The notes under the pieces are model-generated. The model saw only the letters and a list, made by a program, of their open reading frames with translations. It was not told where the DNA came from and made no database searches. A stretch of 64,000 bases of DNA, taken from Pedobacter sp. BS3 (GTDB taxonomy: Bacteria; Bacteroidota; Bacteroidia; Sphingobacteriales; Sphingobacteriaceae). The stretch covers positions 434,001 through 498,000 of the forward strand of contig NZ_VTRT01000001.1 of NCBI RefSeq assembly GCF_008274585.1, read 5' to 3'. Shown here piece after piece: positions 9,720-27,402 of the stretch. Position 1 is the first letter of the stretch, and each line of letters starts with the position of its first letter. Both the position numbers and the translations under genes were made by a program.

Positions 9720-10910
9720 TTAATACAAAAATCCAAACAGCCATAACGGAATTTTTTGCTGATAGCCGATCTCTATATCATCGGCTACGACGTATGCTTT
9801 ATCCAGGTGCCTGATTTGTTTTGAAGATTTATCTTTACCACCTATTTCGAATACAGTATCAGCTATCCTGAAATCACTGTCCTGTATATAGCTTACCGGC
9901 TTTACCACAGCAACCTGGTTAATAAAAAAGCTTTCACGCATATTTCCAATATTGCTGTTTGTATCTGCCAGGGCGATGTATAAATTGGGATGATGCAGGT
10001 ATATTTTTTCAGGCTTTTGCAGTAAGCCGATGTCTTTAACAGCGTTATGCAAGCCACGAATAACCCGGAGGTCTTCCAGGTAATGCAGGTAATTTACCAG
10101 CGAGTTACGTGTAACTCCCGTACGTTCGCTTAGCTTAGATATATTTGGCTTGAACGGAACAGATTCGGCGATGATATGTAATAACAGGCGGATCTTTTCG
10201 ATGCTGGCATAGCTGATGTCATGCGAAGCCGGAAGATCTGCTGATAAGGCCAGCGAAATGGTTTCGGCCAGTTTTAACGGATAAGTAGCGTTGTTTTCTA
10301 TAAAATAGGGATAATAGCCGTATTGGAGATAATTTTTAAAATGCTCAAACGGGCGCAATATCTTAACAATATTACGGGCATGGTTGACGTGATCTTCAAG
10401 TAAATGTTCAAGAGTAATAGCATCAAGAGATCTTTTTGTAACCAGTTCAAGGTATTCCCGGAAGGAGAGGCCAAACAATTCATACATTACAGCTCTTCTG
10501 CTCAGGTCGCCTTTAGCCTTATCCAGGTGTATAATTGACGAGCCGGTAAATACAACATGCAGATCAGGATGGTCATCATAAATATTCTTTAGTTCCTGCG
10601 ACCAGTTGCTGTAGCGGTGAACTTCGTCCAGCAACAGAAAGCGGCCACCCTGCTTAACAAATGCATCGGCCAGATCAGCCAGCCTGTTCTCTGTAAAATA
10701 CAGATCGTCTAAGCTGGCATATAAGGTTTGATGATCCTGCGGGAGCTGTAAAGCGATATATTGAAGCAACAACGTTGTTTTACCTGCTCCTCTTGCGCCT
10801 TTAATACCGATCAGCCTGTCGTTCCAGTCTATTTTCTGATGTAAATATCGTTTAAAATCAACTGGCACACGGTCCCGCTTTTTATAGAATTTTGCTGCAA
10901 GAGTTTCCAT
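9720..10910 (-). CDS. AAA_14/DUF4143-type P-loop ATPase
   Basis: From ATG 10910 the protein has 396 residues. It carries Walker A GARGAGKTTLL, Walker B FLLLDEVHRYSNW and sensor VVFTGSSIIHLDK, the AAA_14 pattern, with a C-terminal DUF4143-like region and a helix-turn-helix-like segment KLSERTGVTRNSLVNYLHYLED near residue 260. Members are widespread in bacteria and archaea and often behave as mobile, paralogous single genes of unknown role. A TTG start at 10931 is also open but lies in an inverted-repeat promoter region. It is flanked by unrelated genes and is probably monocistronic. Confidence 0.88.
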   Translation of the reverse strand: METLAAKFYKKRDRVPVDFKRYLHQKIDWNDRLIGIKGARGAGKTTLLLQYIALQLPQDHQTLYASLDDLYFTENRLADLADAFVKQGGRFLLLDEVHRYSNWSQELKNIYDDHPDLHVVFTGSSIIHLDKAKGDLSRRAVMYELFGLSFREYLELVTKRSLDAITLEHLLEDHVNHARNIVKILRPFEHFKNYLQYGYYPYFIENNATYPLKLAETISLALSADLPASHDISYASIEKIRLLLHIIAESVPFKPNISKLSERTGVTRNSLVNYLHYLEDLRVIRGLHNAVKDIGLLQKPEKIYLHHPNLYIALADTNSNIGNMRESFFINQVAVVKPVSYIQDSDFRIADTVFEIGGKDKSSKQIRHLDKAYVVADDIEIGYQQKIPLWLFGFLY

Positions 10911-10917
10911 TTTGTTC

Positions 10918-10964
10918 TTTGTAAAGAGCAAATATGGTTATAAATTGTTTTTTACAAAGAGCAA
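10918..10964. promoter_or_regulatory. Inverted and direct repeats upstream of the AAA_14 gene
   Basis: CTTTGTAAA (10918-10926) and TTTACAAAG (10951-10959) form an exact 9-bp inverted repeat. AAAGAGCAA occurs twice at a 33-bp interval (10923-10931, 10956-10964). They lie just upstream of the start and may be an operator. Confidence 0.4.
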
Positions 10965-11099
10965 TGTGTGGTTTAATAGTATTATTCGCTATTGGTTTTC
11001 AGCTTTTAATTTACTCCTGGATACTATACCGTATTTCGGCATCAATGTTTAACTTGCAATCCGGCAAATGAATAGATACGTTCAGTATGAATAGCGCTC

Positions 11100-11801
11100 A
11101 TGAAAACAGATAAAACCGGTTGCAATCTTCAAAGTTGCTTTATGTGCAGGCTGGCCGCTAAGGAGTGGAAGTTCGCAATTGATGCGCACAAAAAGAATTT
11201 CCTGGTAAAGAAGGGCGAGCAGTTCATTACCGAAGGCGACCCTGTAACCGGTGTATATTTTGTGTACAGCGGTAAGGTAAAAGTTCATAAAAAATGGGGC
11301 GACCGGGAGCTGATCGTTCGTTTTGCTCATAACGGAGCTATTGTGGGTCACCGGGGCATTAGTACCCGTAACATGGTTTATCCGATATCAGCAACGGCCC
11401 TTGAAAACAGCTCAGTTTGCTTTGTGGATATTGATTTTTTCATGGCGAGCCTCAAGGTGAATCCTGAGCTGATGCTTAACCTGATGCTGTTTTACGCTGA
11501 TGAACTACAGGAATCTGAAAAACGGATGCGTAACCTGGCCCTTATGTCCGTAAAGGGCCGTCTGGCGCTGGCCTTGCTTCATTTAAGAGAGCTTTTCGGG
11601 ATGGATACCGCTGGCTTTATTGATATTGAGCTAAGCCGGCAGGATCTGGCTGCTTTTACGGGAGCTGCCTACGAAACTGTTTTCAGAACATTAAATGAAT
11701 TTACGTTCGATAAGCTTATTGCGATAGCCGGAAAAAGAATACGTATTACAGATAACGGCAAACTTGTTAACCTGACACTGGATAATGAATCGGCAGGGTA
11801 A
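11100..11801 (+). CDS. FNR-like Crp-family regulator with a four-cysteine signature
   Basis: The 233-residue protein has a cyclic-nucleotide-binding-type beta-roll (about 30-130), a dimer helix and a winged helix (about 180-225). Near the N-terminus are Cys8, Cys13 and Cys16 (CNLQSCFMC), and Cys107 in SSVCFVD aligns with FNR Cys122 in MVCEIPF. Together these are candidate ligands for an oxygen-sensing [4Fe-4S] cluster, with spacing unlike E. coli FNR (Cys20, 23, 29, 122). The recognition helix reads AAYETVFRTLNEF: Glu and Arg of the FNR E-x-x-S-R triad are kept, but Ser is replaced by Phe. It converges on the nirBD operon and is its likely regulator, which is inference from context and from an FNR-like palindrome upstream of nirB. 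Confidence 0.87.
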   Translation: MKTDKTGCNLQSCFMCRLAAKEWKFAIDAHKKNFLVKKGEQFITEGDPVTGVYFVYSGKVKVHKKWGDRELIVRFAHNGAIVGHRGISTRNMVYPISATALENSSVCFVDIDFFMASLKVNPELMLNLMLFYADELQESEKRMRNLALMSVKGRLALALLHLRELFGMDTAGFIDIELSRQDLAAFTGAAYETVFRTLNEFTFDKLIAIAGKRIRITDNGKLVNLTLDNESAG

Positions 11802-11804
11802 CAA

Positions 11805-11838
11805 ATAAAAATCCCGCTGCCTGAACCAGAACAGCGGG
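11805..11838 (-). terminator. Terminator of the nir operon
   Basis: CCCGCTG (11813-11819) and CAGCGGG (11832-11838) form a 7-bp stem. Read on the minus strand it is followed by ATTTTTATTTG. It lies between two convergent genes, with the T run only in the nir direction. Confidence 0.65.
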
Positions 11839-11857
11839 TCTCCTTCATCAAACTTTA

Positions 11858-12268
11858 TTAAAACTTATAGCCAATTCCGGCGCCGGCAATCCACTTGCCG
11901 TCTTTTGCCGCGGTTTTGCTCAAGTAATAAAAAGGCAATTGTATGGCCAGGTGTTTGTACACAGCCGTAAGCCCGAAGCCCAGCGTTGGGGTTATCGTAG
12001 CGTTCTTTGTTCCTGCGGTTACCTTATCCTCTTTAATCTTTAACGAGGGAAGTAAGCCCACCAACAGACTAAAAGGTTTTTTATTGAATTTCACGCCCGG
12101 GCCTGTACAATTTACAAAGGCGCCATCGTCAGCGTAACCGGCTACCAGAACGCCATCAAATAATACAGGTTTTACTCTGCCGGCATCTGGTGTTTGCGCT
12201 TTTGCCGAAAAATTAAGCATGCAGAGTACAAGGCCGCCGTACAGGGCAGCATAGTGTTTACGTGTCAT
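11858..12268 (-). CDS. Small secreted beta-rich protein in the nitrite operon
   Basis: The 136-residue protein has a signal peptide (about 1-24, ending AKAQT) and a beta-rich body that ends GAGIGYKF, with an aromatic C-terminal residue as in outer-membrane barrels. ATITPTLGFGLTAVYKHLAIQLPFYY looks like barrel hairpins, but the chain is short for a barrel (about 110 mature residues). It is the last gene of the nirB-nirD-channel unit, 34 bp after the channel gene, so a role in nitrate or nitrite handling at the outer membrane is possible but unproven. I do not recognise a named family. Confidence 0.7.
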   Translation of the reverse strand: MTRKHYAALYGGLVLCMLNFSAKAQTPDAGRVKPVLFDGVLVAGYADDGAFVNCTGPGVKFNKKPFSLLVGLLPSLKIKEDKVTAGTKNATITPTLGFGLTAVYKHLAIQLPFYYLSKTAAKDGKWIAGAGIGYKF

Positions 12269-12302
12269 AAGGTTTGTTTTTATTTAATTGTTATCAGAAA
12301 AA

Positions 12303-13118
12303 TCATTGTGCGGCAGAGGCAGTTACATCTTCACTTTTTCCATAGGTGTAATAAATAGCCATCCCGGTAAATAACAGGCCGCCAATGATGTTGCCCAGTG
12401 TTACAATCAGCTGATTATCCAGCCACCAGTCGGCTATGGTAACGTGGGCGCCAAACATCATCCCGGCAGGAATGACAAACATATTGACCACGGCGTGCTC
12501 ATAGCCTAATGCGAAGAAAATGAAAATCGGGATACCGGCAGCCAATATTTTGCCCAGGGTAGATTTGGATGTCATGGCCATTACTACGCCCATACAGACC
12601 ATCCAGTTACACAGAATAGCTTTAACAAAAGCTGTAAGCAGGCCCGCCCCTCCATGACTGGCATAGGCGATGGTCTTTTTTTCGGCTACGGCTACAATGG
12701 TTTTTTCAATAGCTCCCAATGTTCCGGACGAGCCAAATTCTGAGGCAGCCGCCCAGTACAGGAAAGCAAATAACAAACTTCCGATCAGGTTCCCGGTAAA
12801 TACCCAGAACAGGTTTTTCAGCATGGTTCCGGCAGAAATTTTCTTCTCCAGGAAGGCCAGCGGAACCAGCGAAAAGCTTCCGGTTACCAGCTCCAGGCCT
12901 AAAATAACGATAATGACGAAGCCAACAGGGAATACAACGGCTCCCGCCATGCTGATGTTGGTTTGTGCTACAGCCAGAAACGCCAGCGTTACGGAAATAG
13001 CCAGCAGTGCCCCCGACATACTGCCCCGAATTAATAAATCTTTTACAGATAAAGAAGCCTTGTTAAGAGCTGCGCCCATCATGGCGCTGGCTACTTCTTT
13101 TGGTGATACATAATCCAT
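12303..13118 (-). CDS. nirC: Formate/nitrite transporter (FNT) family channel
   Basis: The 271-residue protein has six predicted membrane helices and the FNT signatures GLELVTGSF (first discontinuous helix) and GYEHAVVNMF, whose His is the conserved central pore residue of FocA/NirC. FNT pentamers move formate, nitrite or hydrosulfide across the inner membrane. Its place directly after nirD makes nitrite the likely substrate, so NirC is preferred to FocA. The gene is 36 bp after nirD and is followed by a small secreted protein. Confidence 0.9.
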   Translation of the reverse strand: MDYVSPKEVASAMMGAALNKASLSVKDLLIRGSMSGALLAISVTLAFLAVAQTNISMAGAVVFPVGFVIIVILGLELVTGSFSLVPLAFLEKKISAGTMLKNLFWVFTGNLIGSLLFAFLYWAAASEFGSSGTLGAIEKTIVAVAEKKTIAYASHGGAGLLTAFVKAILCNWMVCMGVVMAMTSKSTLGKILAAGIPIFIFFALGYEHAVVNMFVIPAGMMFGAHVTIADWWLDNQLIVTLGNIIGGLLFTGMAIYYTYGKSEDVTASAAQ

Positions 13119-13154: not shown

Positions 13155-13538
13155 TTAAGCGCCGGTTGCCAGCACAGGCTGCGACTGACCGTTTATCTGG
13201 CCGGTAGTTAAGCCGATGTATACTAAATTATCCTCTACCTTTACGGGATAGGTTTGTATGGCGCATTCATCGCCGCTAAGGCACTGGCCGGTAGCCAGCG
13301 AAAATGTTTTTTTATGAAACGGACAGGCAATCTTCGGCTCTCCGGCCACGGAGCCAATCATACCACGGCTTAACGCCATCTGTTTACGGTGCGGACATTC
13401 GTTTTGTGTAGCATACCACTCGTTACGACGGGTGAAATAGAACAAGGCGATTTGCTGGTCGCCATGCTTTACGCAAACGCCGCCGTTTTCAACCACATCG
13501 TTTACGTGGCAGGCGGCAATCCAGTGTGTTGTTTCCAT
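13155..13538 (-). CDS. nirD: Nitrite reductase small subunit, Rieske-type
   Basis: The 127-residue protein is a Rieske fold. Cys48/His50 in ECPHRKQ and Cys72/His75 in ACPFHKK form the full C-x-H and C-x2-H ligand set for a [2Fe-2S] cluster. This is notable because enterobacterial NirD is Rieske-like but lacks these ligands; the arrangement here is closer to Bacillus NasE-type subunits. It begins 36 bp after nirB and forms the NADH-dependent nitrite reductase with it in the cytoplasm. Confidence 0.92.
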   Translation of the reverse strand: METTHWIAACHVNDVVENGGVCVKHGDQQIALFYFTRRNEWYATQNECPHRKQMALSRGMIGSVAGEPKIACPFHKKTFSLATGQCLSGDECAIQTYPVKVEDNLVYIGLTTGQINGQSQPVLATGA

Positions 13539-13573: not shown

Positions 13574-16090
13574 CTATTTCCAGTCGGCAGCTACTTTCTG
13601 GTTACGCATTTCATTAAATGCTACACTCGGATCTTTTTCGCCCGGTGCGTTTACAAAATGGGTAAAGCGTTTCCGGATTTCGGGAGTTTCTACCGCTACC
13701 TTCCATTCACATTGATACGCATTTACCAGTTCCTGCATTTCTTCTTCCCATTGCCCGGCCATACCCAGGCTATCGTTTATTACCACGTTACGCAGGTAAT
13801 CCATACCGCCATCCATTTTATTGAGCCAGGTTGCGGTACGTGTAAGCGGGTCGGCGGTGCGGATGTAGAACATCAGGAAACGGTCGATGTACCGGATGCA
13901 GGTTTCGCTGTCGATATCAGCGGCAAGTAATAAGGCATGCTGTGGCTTGCTGCCGCCATTGCCGCATACGTACAGGTTCCAGCCTTTTTCTGTGGCTATG
14001 ATGCCGAAATCCTTGCTTTGGGCCTCGGCACATTCACGGATGCAGCCGCTTACGGCGGATTTAATTTTGTGCGGCGCCCGCAATCCGCGATAGCGTTCTT
14101 CTATTTGTATGGCAAAGCTCACGCTATCGTGCAAACCAAACCGGCACCAGGTGCTGCCTACACAGCTCTTAACCGTACGCAAGGCCTTTCCATACGCGTG
14201 TCCGCTTTCAAATCCGGCAGCAATTAGCTCTTCCCAAATCAGCGGTAAATCACTCAAGTGAGCGCCAAACATATCAATGCGCTGGCCGCCGGTTATCTTA
14301 GTGTACAGGTTGTATTTCTCGGCTACGCGGCCAATCACCATGAGTTTTTGCGGGGTAATCTCGCCGCCCGGTATCCGCGGAACAACAGAATACGTGCCAC
14401 CTTTCTGGATGTTAGCCAGAAAACGGTCATTGCTGTCCTGGGCGGTGTCGTTGCCCTTTTTCAGGATCATGTCGTTCCACAAGCTGGCCAGCAGCGATGA
14501 TACCAACGGTTTGCATACTTCACAGCCGTCGCCTTTGCCCAGGTGGTCGAGCGCCTCATCGTATGAGCGGATATGGTGTATCTTAATAAGATCGTACAGT
14601 TCCTGCCGGCTGAAATTAAAATGCTCGCACACTACGTTACGGATATATTTCCCGTTTTGCTTCATGGTGTGCACCATCAAATCCTTGATCATTGGCATAC
14701 AGCCTCCGCAGCCTGTACCGGCTTTCGTGCATTTCTTTATGGCATCCACAGACTCACAATGATGCTCTGTTACAGCGCTGCAAATGGTTCCTTTATTCAC
14801 ACTTTCGCAGCTACAGATCAACGCATCGTCGGGCAGGGCGGCAACGCCGGAACCTTCTGCCTGTGCCGATCTGTTACGGGCGCCTATTACCAACTCTTCG
14901 GGATCAGGCGGCAGCACTATTTTATTATTAACGGTTTGCAGCAGCATGTTATAGGCCGAGGCATCGCCAACTAAAATACCTCCAAGCAGGTATTTGCCAT
15001 CATTACTGATGTTGATACGTTTGTAAGTCCCTTTGTGCGTATCTTCAAAGCTAATGGTCCGGCATTCGGGTTCAGTTATAAACGCGTCGCCATAGCTGGC
15101 TACGTCTACACCAATCAGTTTCAGCTTGGTGCTCATGTCAAATCCGGCGAAAGCCTTTGCCTGGCCACACAGGTTAGCAGCAACAATTTCTGCCATTTCG
15201 TATCCGGGTGCAATCAGGCCATAGATCATGTTGTTGTGCAGCGCACACTCGCCAATGGCAAAAACCGATGGATCGCTGGTCTGCATGGTATCATTGACCA
15301 CGATGCCGCCACGGGGGCCAACCTCAAGTCCTGCTTGTCTGGCCAGCTCGTCACGCGGGCGGATGCCTGCCGAAATAACCAGCATATCTACGGGCAATTG
15401 AGTGTCGTCGTTGAATGTTAATGCTTCGATGCGTTCATCGCCTGCTATGGCTGTTGTGCTTTTGTTGAGATGTGTTGTTAAGCCGAGCTCTTTTAGCTTG
15501 GATTGCAGAATGTTGCTTCCGGCGCTGTCTATCTGGCGGGGCATTAAGCGTGGTGCATATTCTATGACATGGGTTTCGGTGATGCCTAAATCTATGAGGG
15601 CTTTAGCTGCTTCAAGGCCGAGTAAACCTCCGCCCATTACCGCACCCGATTGTGCTTTTGTAGCATAAGCGGCTATCAAATCCAGATCGTCGATGGTGCG
15701 ATAGACGAAAACGCCTTCTTTGTTTATTCCGGGAATATCGGGCACAAACGGCGAGGAGCCGGTAGCCAGCACCAGGTAATCGTAATCTACAATAAGTCCC
15801 TTGCTGGATTGTACGGTTTTATAGATGCGATCTATTTCTGTAACCGGATCGTTAAGGTGCAGCGTAATGTTATTATCGGCATACCAGTTTGCGGAACAGA
15901 GTGATAAATCATCAGCGTTCTTTCCATTAAAATACTCACTCAGATGAACGCGGTCATAGGCTCGTCTTTTTTCCTCGCCAAAAACTACAATATCAAAAGA
16001 AGATGATTTTGCTATTAATTTTTCGCAAAATTTGTGACTAACCATTCCATTTCCTATAACAACTACGGATGTTTTGCTTTCTTCTGTCAT
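13574..16090 (-). CDS. nirB: Nitrite reductase [NAD(P)H] large subunit
   Basis: The 838-residue flavoprotein reduces nitrite to ammonium with NAD(P)H. Domains in order: FAD/NAD(P)H-disulphide-reductase module (about 1-400, with GNGMVSHKF and TGSSPFVPDIPG), a BFD-type [2Fe-2S] region (about 423-475, CSCESV and then CTKAGTGCGGC), a second Cys-rich segment (about 520-545), the ferredoxin-like half domain, and the sirohaem/[4Fe-4S] domain. The sirohaem ligands are C-x5-C in SCVGSTWC (about 640-646) and C-x3-C in SGCIREC (about 682). Length is normal. No sirohaem-synthesis or nitrate-reductase gene is in this window. A long AT-rich leader precedes it. Confidence 0.97.
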   Translation of the reverse strand: MTEESKTSVVVIGNGMVSHKFCEKLIAKSSSFDIVVFGEEKRRAYDRVHLSEYFNGKNADDLSLCSANWYADNNITLHLNDPVTEIDRIYKTVQSSKGLIVDYDYLVLATGSSPFVPDIPGINKEGVFVYRTIDDLDLIAAYATKAQSGAVMGGGLLGLEAAKALIDLGITETHVIEYAPRLMPRQIDSAGSNILQSKLKELGLTTHLNKSTTAIAGDERIEALTFNDDTQLPVDMLVISAGIRPRDELARQAGLEVGPRGGIVVNDTMQTSDPSVFAIGECALHNNMIYGLIAPGYEMAEIVAANLCGQAKAFAGFDMSTKLKLIGVDVASYGDAFITEPECRTISFEDTHKGTYKRINISNDGKYLLGGILVGDASAYNMLLQTVNNKIVLPPDPEELVIGARNRSAQAEGSGVAALPDDALICSCESVNKGTICSAVTEHHCESVDAIKKCTKAGTGCGGCMPMIKDLMVHTMKQNGKYIRNVVCEHFNFSRQELYDLIKIHHIRSYDEALDHLGKGDGCEVCKPLVSSLLASLWNDMILKKGNDTAQDSNDRFLANIQKGGTYSVVPRIPGGEITPQKLMVIGRVAEKYNLYTKITGGQRIDMFGAHLSDLPLIWEELIAAGFESGHAYGKALRTVKSCVGSTWCRFGLHDSVSFAIQIEERYRGLRAPHKIKSAVSGCIRECAEAQSKDFGIIATEKGWNLYVCGNGGSKPQHALLLAADIDSETCIRYIDRFLMFYIRTADPLTRTATWLNKMDGGMDYLRNVVINDSLGMAGQWEEEMQELVNAYQCEWKVAVETPEIRKRFTHFVNAPGEKDPSVAFNEMRNQKVAADWK

Positions 16091-16171: not shown

Positions 16172-16277
16172 TTTTTTTATAGATTTTATAATAAATACAA
16201 CAAATAAATATATAATCGCCATTTTTATTGTATTAACAATTCAAATAACATAAAATTATCATAATAAATCAATTATT

Positions 16278-16295
16278 TTATGATTTAAATCATAA
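16278..16295. promoter_or_regulatory. 18-bp perfect palindrome, FNR-box-like
   Basis: TTATGATTTAAATCATAA equals its own reverse complement. Its core, TGAT-N4-ATCA, is the inner part of the FNR consensus TTGAT-N4-ATCAA. It lies about 190 bp upstream of nirB and would suit the FNR-like protein encoded at 11100-11801; that link is inference. Confidence 0.55.
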
Positions 16296-16632: not shown

Positions 16633-16971
16633 TTATGAGAATAATATTCTTACCAATCGCAGTAAGTTCTCTTTGTCAATGCTACTTTCTTCAGACTTAT
16701 CATAAAGAATAAGCATATTAACTATTGTACCTGTTTTATGCTCATCTATAAGGTAGGTGATAATACGGTATCCTCCACTTTTTCCTTTTCCCTTGCTTTC
16801 AACAGCTAATCTAATTTTATATAAATTATTTCCGAGACTAATTCCCAAGGTAGGATTTTCAAGGAGTTCTTTTTCTAAGGCTTCTAAATCGGCAACTAAG
16901 GAGCGGTGTTTTCTCTTATATATTTTTAATCGTTTATAAAATATGGTAGTGTAAGATATGCTGTTTTTCAT
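16633..16971 (-). CDS. RelE/ParE-superfamily toxin
   Basis: The 112-residue basic protein matches the RelE/ParE fold: a helical N-terminus (FYKRLKIYKRKHRSLVADLEAL), the central strand NNLYKIRLAVESKGKGKSGGYRIITYLID with the typical Lys/Gly-rich turn and GGYR, and IVNMLILYDKSE. Such toxins cleave mRNA on ribosomes or poison gyrase; which applies here cannot be told. It overlaps the upstream antitoxin by four bases (ATGA). The pair sits right behind the nir leader, where small toxin-antitoxin cassettes often land. Confidence 0.85.
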   Translation of the reverse strand: MKNSISYTTIFYKRLKIYKRKHRSLVADLEALEKELLENPTLGISLGNNLYKIRLAVESKGKGKSGGYRIITYLIDEHKTGTIVNMLILYDKSEESSIDKENLLRLVRILFS

Positions 16972-27327: not shown

Positions 27328-27402
27328 GTTGCTACAAAGATGAGTTTTAATTACCCTGCAAGAGAATAAACAATTATATTCGTTAATGTACAATTATTGC
27401 TG

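Follow-up and report, generated by a model that had tools for sequence, protein, structure and literature searches.

A candidate FNR-like iron-sulfur regulator with a rearranged cysteine layout and a distinct predicted operator near nirBD in Pedobacter

Introduction

Can a Crp/Fnr-family protein whose cysteines are spaced differently from those of FNR hold an FNR-like iron-sulfur cluster, and does it control the nitrite reductase genes beside which it is encoded? The question is raised by a locus of Pedobacter sp. BS3, located in a 64-kb stretch of DNA that was analysed as a whole and is referred to here as the window. The regulator gene and its key codons are the following.

11100..11801, + strand: Crp/Fnr-family regulator, FNR-like, with a C-x4-C-x2-C ... 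C layout, 233 amino acids (open reading frame; Pfam; AF2 model)
11121..11147, + strand: codons of Cys8 (11121-11123), Cys13 (11136-11138) and Cys16 (11145-11147), candidate N-terminal cluster ligands (sequence; invariance)
11418..11420, + strand: codon of Cys107, aligned with FNR Cys122 (sequence; alignments)
11673..11687, + strand: recognition helix Glu192-Thr-Val-Phe195-Arg196, corresponding to FNR Glu209, Ser212 and Arg213 (sequence; FNR alignment)

Results

The regulator resembles FNR in fold and distal cysteine

The regulator carries a cNMP_binding beta-roll (PF00027) and an HTH_Crp_2 domain (PF13545), both above the Pfam cut-offs, and PF00325 was matched as well. This is the architecture required of FNR, a cNMP-like beta-roll plus a Crp helix-turn-helix, and the superposition on holo-FNR (Z ∼23) agrees with it. 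Cys8, Cys13, Cys16 and Cys107 are the sole cysteines of the protein. The coordinates and cysteine positions given in a first-pass annotation of this DNA were correct. Its further statements, that Cys107 is the equivalent of FNR Cys122 and that the DNA-contact triad retains Glu and Arg with Phe for Ser, were borne out by an alignment with E. coli FNR (from NC_000913.3), in which Cys122 pairs with Cys107 and Glu209, Ser212 and Arg213 pair with Glu192, Phe195 and Arg196. None of the NCBIfam profiles reached its cut-off for this protein; the top score was that of CRP (72 bits against a cut-off of 266), followed by Fnr (PRK11161; 63.4 against 228), and the NtcA model TIGR03697 scored 43.4 against 245.

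The cluster ligands of FNR are residues 20, 23, 29 and 122 (PMC6659574, available in part). While the position of the distal ligand is retained as Cys107, the N-terminal spacing C-x2-C-x5-C of FNR is replaced by C-x4-C-x2-C or, in some members of the family, by C-x3-C-x2-C. The N-terminal cysteines span 8 residues in the regulator versus 9 in FNR, and the last of them precedes the distal cysteine by 91 residues (C16-C107) versus 93 in FNR (C29-C122). By sequence alignment, Cys8 pairs with FNR residue 16, Cys13 with residue 23 and Cys16 with residue 26. The AF2 model of the regulator, which had a mean pLDDT of 92.3 with residues 1-10 averaging only 63, superposed on the A. fischeri holo-FNR entries with Z scores of 22.8-23.8, and the first residues to be superposed were 6-8 of the model, on residues 17-20 of A. 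fischeri FNR. The one-to-one matching of the N-terminal cysteines to FNR ligands thus differs between alignment and superposition; it is plausible that the four cysteines converge. The closest solved fold was that of the Porphyromonas gingivalis Crp/Fnr protein 2GAU (Z 27.3, 30% identity), which, unlike the regulator, has no cysteine at the aligned Cys107 position. The next seven chains were of the CRP type (GlxR, M. tuberculosis CRP; Z 24.7-26.3), with holo-FNR scoring lower.

Set against known systems, the regulator shares with FNR of E. coli and A. fischeri (PDB 5e44, 9qlx and 8qto) the Crp fold, a cysteine trio plus the Cys122 equivalent, the Glu and Arg of the recognition helix and a 5-N4-5 palindrome. 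It differs in its cysteine spacing, in Phe instead of Ser212 and in a box of the ATGAT rather than the TTGAT type, and its identity to 5e44 in the superposition is 23%. The nirB promoter of E. coli is said to be induced anaerobically. In CRP, Glu72, Arg82 and Ser83 form the cAMP pocket, and the aligned positions of the regulator are occupied by His84, Tyr94 and Pro95. NtcA binds 2-oxoglutarate and recognises the box GTA-N8-TAC, unlike the ATGAT-N4-ATCAT box predicted here. A naturally altered ligand set like that of the regulator occurs in Acidithiobacillus ferrooxidans FNR, which, in the available part of the source, has Cys at 20, 23 and 122 and none at 29; one N-terminal ligand is dropped there, whereas in the regulator it is shifted (PMC6659574). 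The Pseudomonas putida FNR paralogues ANR, PP_3233 and PP_3287 carry [4Fe-4S] clusters, keep the four FNR cysteines and are expected to use the FNR box, in which the regulator differs from them; PP_3287 has Cys in place of Ser212, where the regulator has Phe (PMC4505428, available in part). HcpR, DNR and NnrR are likewise Crp/Fnr regulators of nitrogen-oxide genes, with HcpR2 present in Bacteroides. HcpR and DNR lack the FNR-type cysteine motif according to the accessible portion of PMC1274295, in contrast to the four conserved cysteines of the regulator.

The four cysteines are conserved in the family

Family members were collected in a contig scan with two peptide patterns, neither of which includes any of the four cysteines, and the best 80 of 341 were taken as loci. 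These 80 named loci belong to Pedobacter, Mucilaginibacter, Sphingobacterium, Chitinophaga, Niastella and their kin and encode 86 family proteins. All 87 aligned sequences, these 86 proteins and the window protein, had Cys8, Cys13, Cys16 and Cys107 without exception. Of the 159 members of a wider set (identity of 45% or more), 150 retained all four cysteines, spaced as C-x4-C-x2-C in 145 and as C-x3-C-x2-C in 5. This set is non-random, since it consists of the 80 named loci, the best similarity matches and 60 hand-picked lower-identity stretches; the latter were rows lacking a locus, mostly of 46-57% identity, and higher-identity rows without a locus were left out. For the count, identical sequences were taken once (184 kept), and loci L003 and L142-L175 were left out. 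Because the quartet was invariant in all 87 sequences although the retrieval patterns were free of cysteines, and was intact in 150 of the 159 members, its conservation is far beyond chance and, as judged from the sequences, it is a family trait. The conservation that the earlier annotation had named as a check of its FNR-like four-cysteine set was therefore found. Position 195 (FNR 212) was Phe in 151 and Tyr in 8 of the 159 members; one of the two scan patterns held ETVF, which biases the Phe count in the 80 scanned loci and not among the members drawn by similarity.

Among the nine exceptions, L185 is truncated or out of frame at its N-terminus. Five members (L188, L190, L195, L196 and L236) have lost Cys8 and Cys16 and retain Cys13, Cys19 and Cys107. 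Of the others, Cys16 is changed in L177, Cys8 and Cys107 are absent from L206, and Cys8, Cys16 and Cys107 from L214. All-or-none loss of the cysteines was accordingly rejected in favour of stepwise loss in a few lineages, with five members keeping Cys13 and Cys107. The genes of L206 and L236, with their decayed cysteine sets, still adjoin nirB and provide a natural test of the need for a cluster. The genome of Pedobacter sp. BS3 also encodes a paralogue that is 53% identical to the regulator and has the same cysteine layout. At L217:7507-10378, the paralogue gene adjoins a CLC channel gene with a CBS domain, and an exact TATTG-N6-CAATA palindrome is located upstream.

Relatives elsewhere in Bacteroidota carry other complete quartets

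The regulator was matched at E 1e-25 or better in 47 of 247 Bacteroidota genomes, its own included. Among more distant relatives, the 25 best-scoring in the phylum were read, 8 of the C-x2-C-x4-C type and 17 of a CxxC type. In all eight C-x2-C-x4-C proteins (seven from genus g29, which we take to be probably Flavobacterium, and one from g30), the cysteine at +102 from the first is the same distal cysteine; their recognition helix reads EQ(A/V)(I/T)R, and nirB lies on the same contig, ∼8-19 kb away, for seven of the eight, the remaining one being on another contig. All 17 CxxC-type relatives (L043, L046-L061) have cysteines at 0, +3, +49 and +102, apparently an FNR-type site with its third ligand in a beta-roll strand, whereas the FNR offsets from the first cysteine are +3, +9 and +102. 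In the jelly roll, the strand bearing +49 runs alongside the strand bearing the distal cysteine, and the +49 cysteine could therefore substitute for the missing third ligand.

In a tree of 35 intact members chosen at random plus the named ones, the eight C-x2-C-x4-C proteins formed one clade (support 99/99), and the window family with its reduced forms shared one open fork (84/80); E. coli CRP, FNR and the second Crp/Fnr protein of the window were not placeable in this tree owing to long branches. The suggestion that the regulator represents a distinct branch is supported. The accompanying claim, that most Bacteroidota Crp/Fnr proteins lack such a cysteine set, was too strong, as 25 of the 25 distant relatives carry other complete quartets; the example chosen for it, the Crp/Fnr open reading frame at 27397, stands, with no N-terminal cysteine pair in its sequence.

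The regulator gene is linked to nitrite and nitrate assimilation genes

Convergent with the regulator, on the opposite strand, lie four genes.

13574..16090, - strand: nirB, large subunit of NADH-dependent nitrite reductase, predicted target (NCBIfam TIGR02374 and NF011565 above cut-off)
13155..13538, - strand: nirD, small subunit, probably in the same operon as nirB (TIGR02378 above cut-off)
12303..13118, - strand: formate/nitrite transporter, probably in the same operon as nirB (PF01226)
11858..12268, - strand: 136-amino-acid protein with a start resembling a signal peptide by eye, probably the last gene of the operon (no Pfam or NCBIfam match)

The gaps between these genes are 34-36 bases, and nirB, nirD, the transporter gene and the 136-amino-acid open reading frame therefore probably constitute a single operon. 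A homologue of the last was present in 38 of the 80 relatives' loci. A 112-amino-acid RelE-like open reading frame (16633-16971, - strand; 25.2 bits against a 27-bit cut-off) is located upstream of the nirB promoter.

Within the 80 named loci, the regulator had NirD as a neighbour in 62, NirB in 60, a major facilitator superfamily (MFS) transporter in 60 and, in 59, a 1172-amino-acid molybdopterin reductase with Pyr_redox_2 and BFD domains (NasA-type nitrate reductase). Further neighbours were a rubredoxin-bearing protein (39), a MobA-like protein (33), a tetrapyrrole methylase (27), an alginate-export-type porin (26), Nitr_red_assoc (22) and NrtABC-like transporter parts (12 each). These counts are lower bounds, several contigs ending within the 10-kb flank, and identities were assigned by searching one representative of each against Pfam or were taken from the window. 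The window holds only the nitrite part of this nitrate/nitrite cluster, which in the relatives looks, from its gene content, like one for nitrate assimilation rather than respiration. The earlier placement of the regulator beside nirBD is right in that they are close, on opposite strands, with the transporter and 136-amino-acid genes in between. Its proposed control of nitrite reduction is supported by the linkage to NirB and NirD (60-62 of 80) and by the box upstream of nirB, with the correction that the targets in relatives look assimilatory.

A palindrome recurs upstream of the linked genes

A feature that goes beyond the earlier annotation is a palindrome, ATGAT-N4-ATCAT, read from the sequences upstream of the cluster genes including nirB.

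16279..16294, no strand: predicted operator TATGATTTAAATCATA, its dyad preceding the start codon of nirB by ∼196 bp (sole zero-mismatch match in 64 kb; de novo motif in relatives)

With up to three mismatches, the window contained 44 matches versus 38 expected by chance, which is no significant excess. The motif emerged de novo when palindromes of every kind were counted in the 242 upstream regions of cluster genes and in mononucleotide shuffles of them. ATGAT-N4-ATCAT topped the palindromes, with 41 of the 242 regions versus 0.8 in the shuffles, and TATGAT-N4-ATCATA was present in 23 versus 0; plain A/T-rich palindromes likewise exceeded the mononucleotide shuffles, by a smaller margin. Allowing one mismatch, the box preceded NirB in 27 of 38 cases, the methylase in 17 of 24, the porin in 12 of 22 and the regulator in 17 of 70, versus 0 of 19 for the MFS transporter, 1 of 10 for NasA, 1 of 15 for NirD and 0 of 14 for the 136-amino-acid open reading frame. 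In the same loci, 26 of the 144 regions preceding main cluster genes or regulators carried the exact box, versus 1 of the 253 preceding other genes; none of the 63 convergent regions and none of the 42 belonging to minor cluster genes had it. When one mismatch was tolerated, the four counts were 43, 11, 0 and 0. Twelve further nirB genes near family members had the box exactly (5), with one mismatch (4) or with two (3). Among four genomes with a close homologue, that of Pedobacter sp. BS3 and G014 carry the exact box before nirB. The idea that the box before nirB is universal in genomes with a family member was rejected, as G332 and G389, of another family, have at best two mismatches. Autoregulation was rejected for the regulator in the window, where no box with up to three mismatches was found in 10581-12282, and in 53 of 70 upstream regions of family regulators the box was absent even when one mismatch was allowed.

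The FNR box is TTGATNNNNATCAA, and Ser212 is among the FNR residues that contact it (PMC4505428, available in part). The predicted box of the window family, ATGAT-N4-ATCAT instead of TTGAT-N4-ATCAA, differs in having A as the first base of the half-site. This base was A in 91% of half-sites, a figure biased by the prior choice of sites that deviate from ATGAT at no more than one base.

In the genome of Pedobacter sp. BS3, the exact pattern occurred at 15 places versus 1 for the reversed pattern. By ORF calling, two of these places are intergenic, two more coincide with the beginning of an ORF and the others are inside ORFs; the nirB copy alone is both intergenic and flanked by T...A. A wide regulon in this genome was rejected, with only 2 of the 15 exact boxes intergenic. 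Genome-wide counts of YATGAT-N4-ATCATR averaged 3.7 in 25 genomes with the regulator (reversed-pattern control 1.1) and 2.8 in 25 genomes without it (control 0.5). Since these counts do not clearly differ, the box pattern outside promoters is background.

The upstream palindrome follows the recognition helix

The regions upstream of 130 regulators were sorted by recognition helix. TATTG-N6-CAATA with up to one mismatch was present for 9 of 18 ETLFK, 6 of 7 ESLFR and 3 of 89 ETVFR proteins, whereas the exact ATGAT box was present for 7 of 89 ETVFR, 3 of 4 ETIYR, 1 of 18 ETLFK and 0 of 7 ESLFR proteins. This showed, at the level of sequence, that among paralogues the type of upstream palindrome varies with the recognition helix of the regulator. 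A gene for a channel-type membrane protein, homologous to the CLC channel gene beside the paralogue, was found near the regulator in 30 of 60 additional loci.

For comparison, 35 nirB upstream regions were taken from genus g29 (31) and from g30, g39, g51 and g52 (4 together). The exact box was absent from all 35, with a one-mismatch copy in 10, and the box as a generic nirB-promoter motif was rejected; regulators were read for a minority of these genomes. AAGTA-N4-TACTT was found in 26 of the 35. The g29 nirB promoters (L164-L175, L237-L259) carry a distinct palindrome, TAAGTATnnATACTTA, adjoining TATTTG, as well as TACGTA repeats.

Position of the box relative to putative promoter elements

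16242..16245, - strand: TTTG at a distance of 41 bases from the dyad, which could be part of a Bacteroidota -7 element; the TA of TAnnTTTG is absent here

The Bacteroidota -7 element is TANNTTTG, with T at -12 (PMC6847099, available in part). Of 28 nirB promoters, 6 (that of the window and five others) had TTTG at 41 bases from the dyad, with a mean of 0.28 per offset, and four others had it at 30-31 bases; a clear promoter element was absent from most of the 28. With TTTG at 41 or 30-31 bases, the dyad would fall at about -49.5 or -39.5, which is upstream of the promoter and on one helix face. This would therefore suit activation, although the geometry is suggestive only.

Discussion

We consider it likely that the regulator is a homodimeric, FNR-like [4Fe-4S] transcriptional activator of nirBD in which one ligand has moved and the DNA code is altered. 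Cys8, Cys13, Cys16 and Cys107 would hold the cluster where FNR has its own, and the order of the N-terminal ligands would be rearranged from C-x2-C-x5-C to C-x4-C-x2-C. With the cluster intact, at low O2, low NO and sufficient iron-sulfur assembly, the dimer would bind ATGAT-N4-ATCAT before nirB and switch on nirB, nirD and the transporter gene; damage to the cluster would switch them off. We infer that the regulator works like FNR, yet it is not filed as FNR because ligand spacing, recognition residue and box, the defining features tested, all depart from those of FNR. A wider scheme strikes us as evenly balanced. In this scheme, the third ligand of the Bacteroidota FNR-like [4Fe-4S] four-cysteine site would have moved along the fold while the distal ligand stayed fixed. 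The third ligand would follow the CxxC in g29 and g30 (C-x2-C-x4-C), precede it in the Pedobacter/Chitinophaga family (C-x4-C-x2-C or C-x3-C-x2-C) and sit in a beta-roll strand (+49) in other families. In the window family, Phe at the position of FNR 212 would pair with the changed ATGAT box and a nitrate-assimilation regulon. Among the matches listed in the open-licence PMC literature, no paper on this regulator family was found.

Conceivably, the cluster is bound as proposed and senses NO, nitrosative stress or iron-sulfur supply rather than O2, a variant that we rate as a serious possibility, somewhat short of even. The cluster demand of NirBD, nitrate reductase and siroheme enzymes is high, nitrite chemistry yields NO, and a more O2-stable cluster would suit aerobic nitrate assimilation, in line with the assimilatory targets in relatives (NasA-type reductase in 59, methylase in 27, MobA-like in 33 and NrtABC-like in 12 of 80 loci). 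The residues between the ligands also differ from those of FNR, and ligand neighbours set O2 reactivity (PMC6659574, available in part). Sequence does not separate the two signals, however, and FNR-type proteins such as ANR and FNR can respond to both (the part of PMC4505428 that was available). A site without iron-sulfur, in which the cysteines form a thiol/disulfide or zinc centre of a redox or metal regulator, appears improbable. Cysteine quartets also bind zinc, and the five members with partial loss hold Cys13, Cys19 and Cys107; yet the fold, the position of the distal ligand and the total N-terminal span all match FNR, and a cluster explains more easily why three related groups keep four cysteines with the third one shifted.

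It is very doubtful that the protein is an NtcA-like nitrogen-status regulator, or a regulator of the cAMP type, with structural cysteines. NtcA belongs to the same superfamily and controls nitrate assimilation in cyanobacteria, and by Z score the AF2 model is somewhat closer to the best seven CRP-type chains (24.7-26.3) than to FNR (22.8-23.8), but the CRP pocket residues are replaced and both NCBIfam models, NtcA (43 of 245 bits) and CRP (72 of 266), score far under their cut-offs. Another Crp/Fnr protein encoded in the same genomes could be the one that binds the palindrome, with the linked gene regulating something else. Two further homologues in the Pedobacter sp. BS3 genome (E up to 10), the second Crp/Fnr-like open reading frame of the window and the genome-wide site counts that do not track the regulator gene are compatible with this. 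We nevertheless regard it as unlikely, given that the upstream palindrome tracks the recognition helix of each family member and that the exact copy is missing from all 35 nirB upstream regions of g29 and the four other genera, few of whose genomes had their regulators read.

If the regulator is indeed a cluster-binding activator of nirBD, an iron-sulfur sensor would gate nitrate and nitrite assimilation in Pedobacter- and Chitinophaga-like Bacteroidota, with a defined operator at hand. The series of ligand layouts, together with matched changes in recognition helix and box, would then show the evolutionary rewiring of a cluster-binding sensor and would aid the annotation of FNR-type sensors that are missed by canonical cysteine-motif rules. 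The findings hint that an FNR-type sensor can be rewired in its ligand spacing and DNA code without changing its job.
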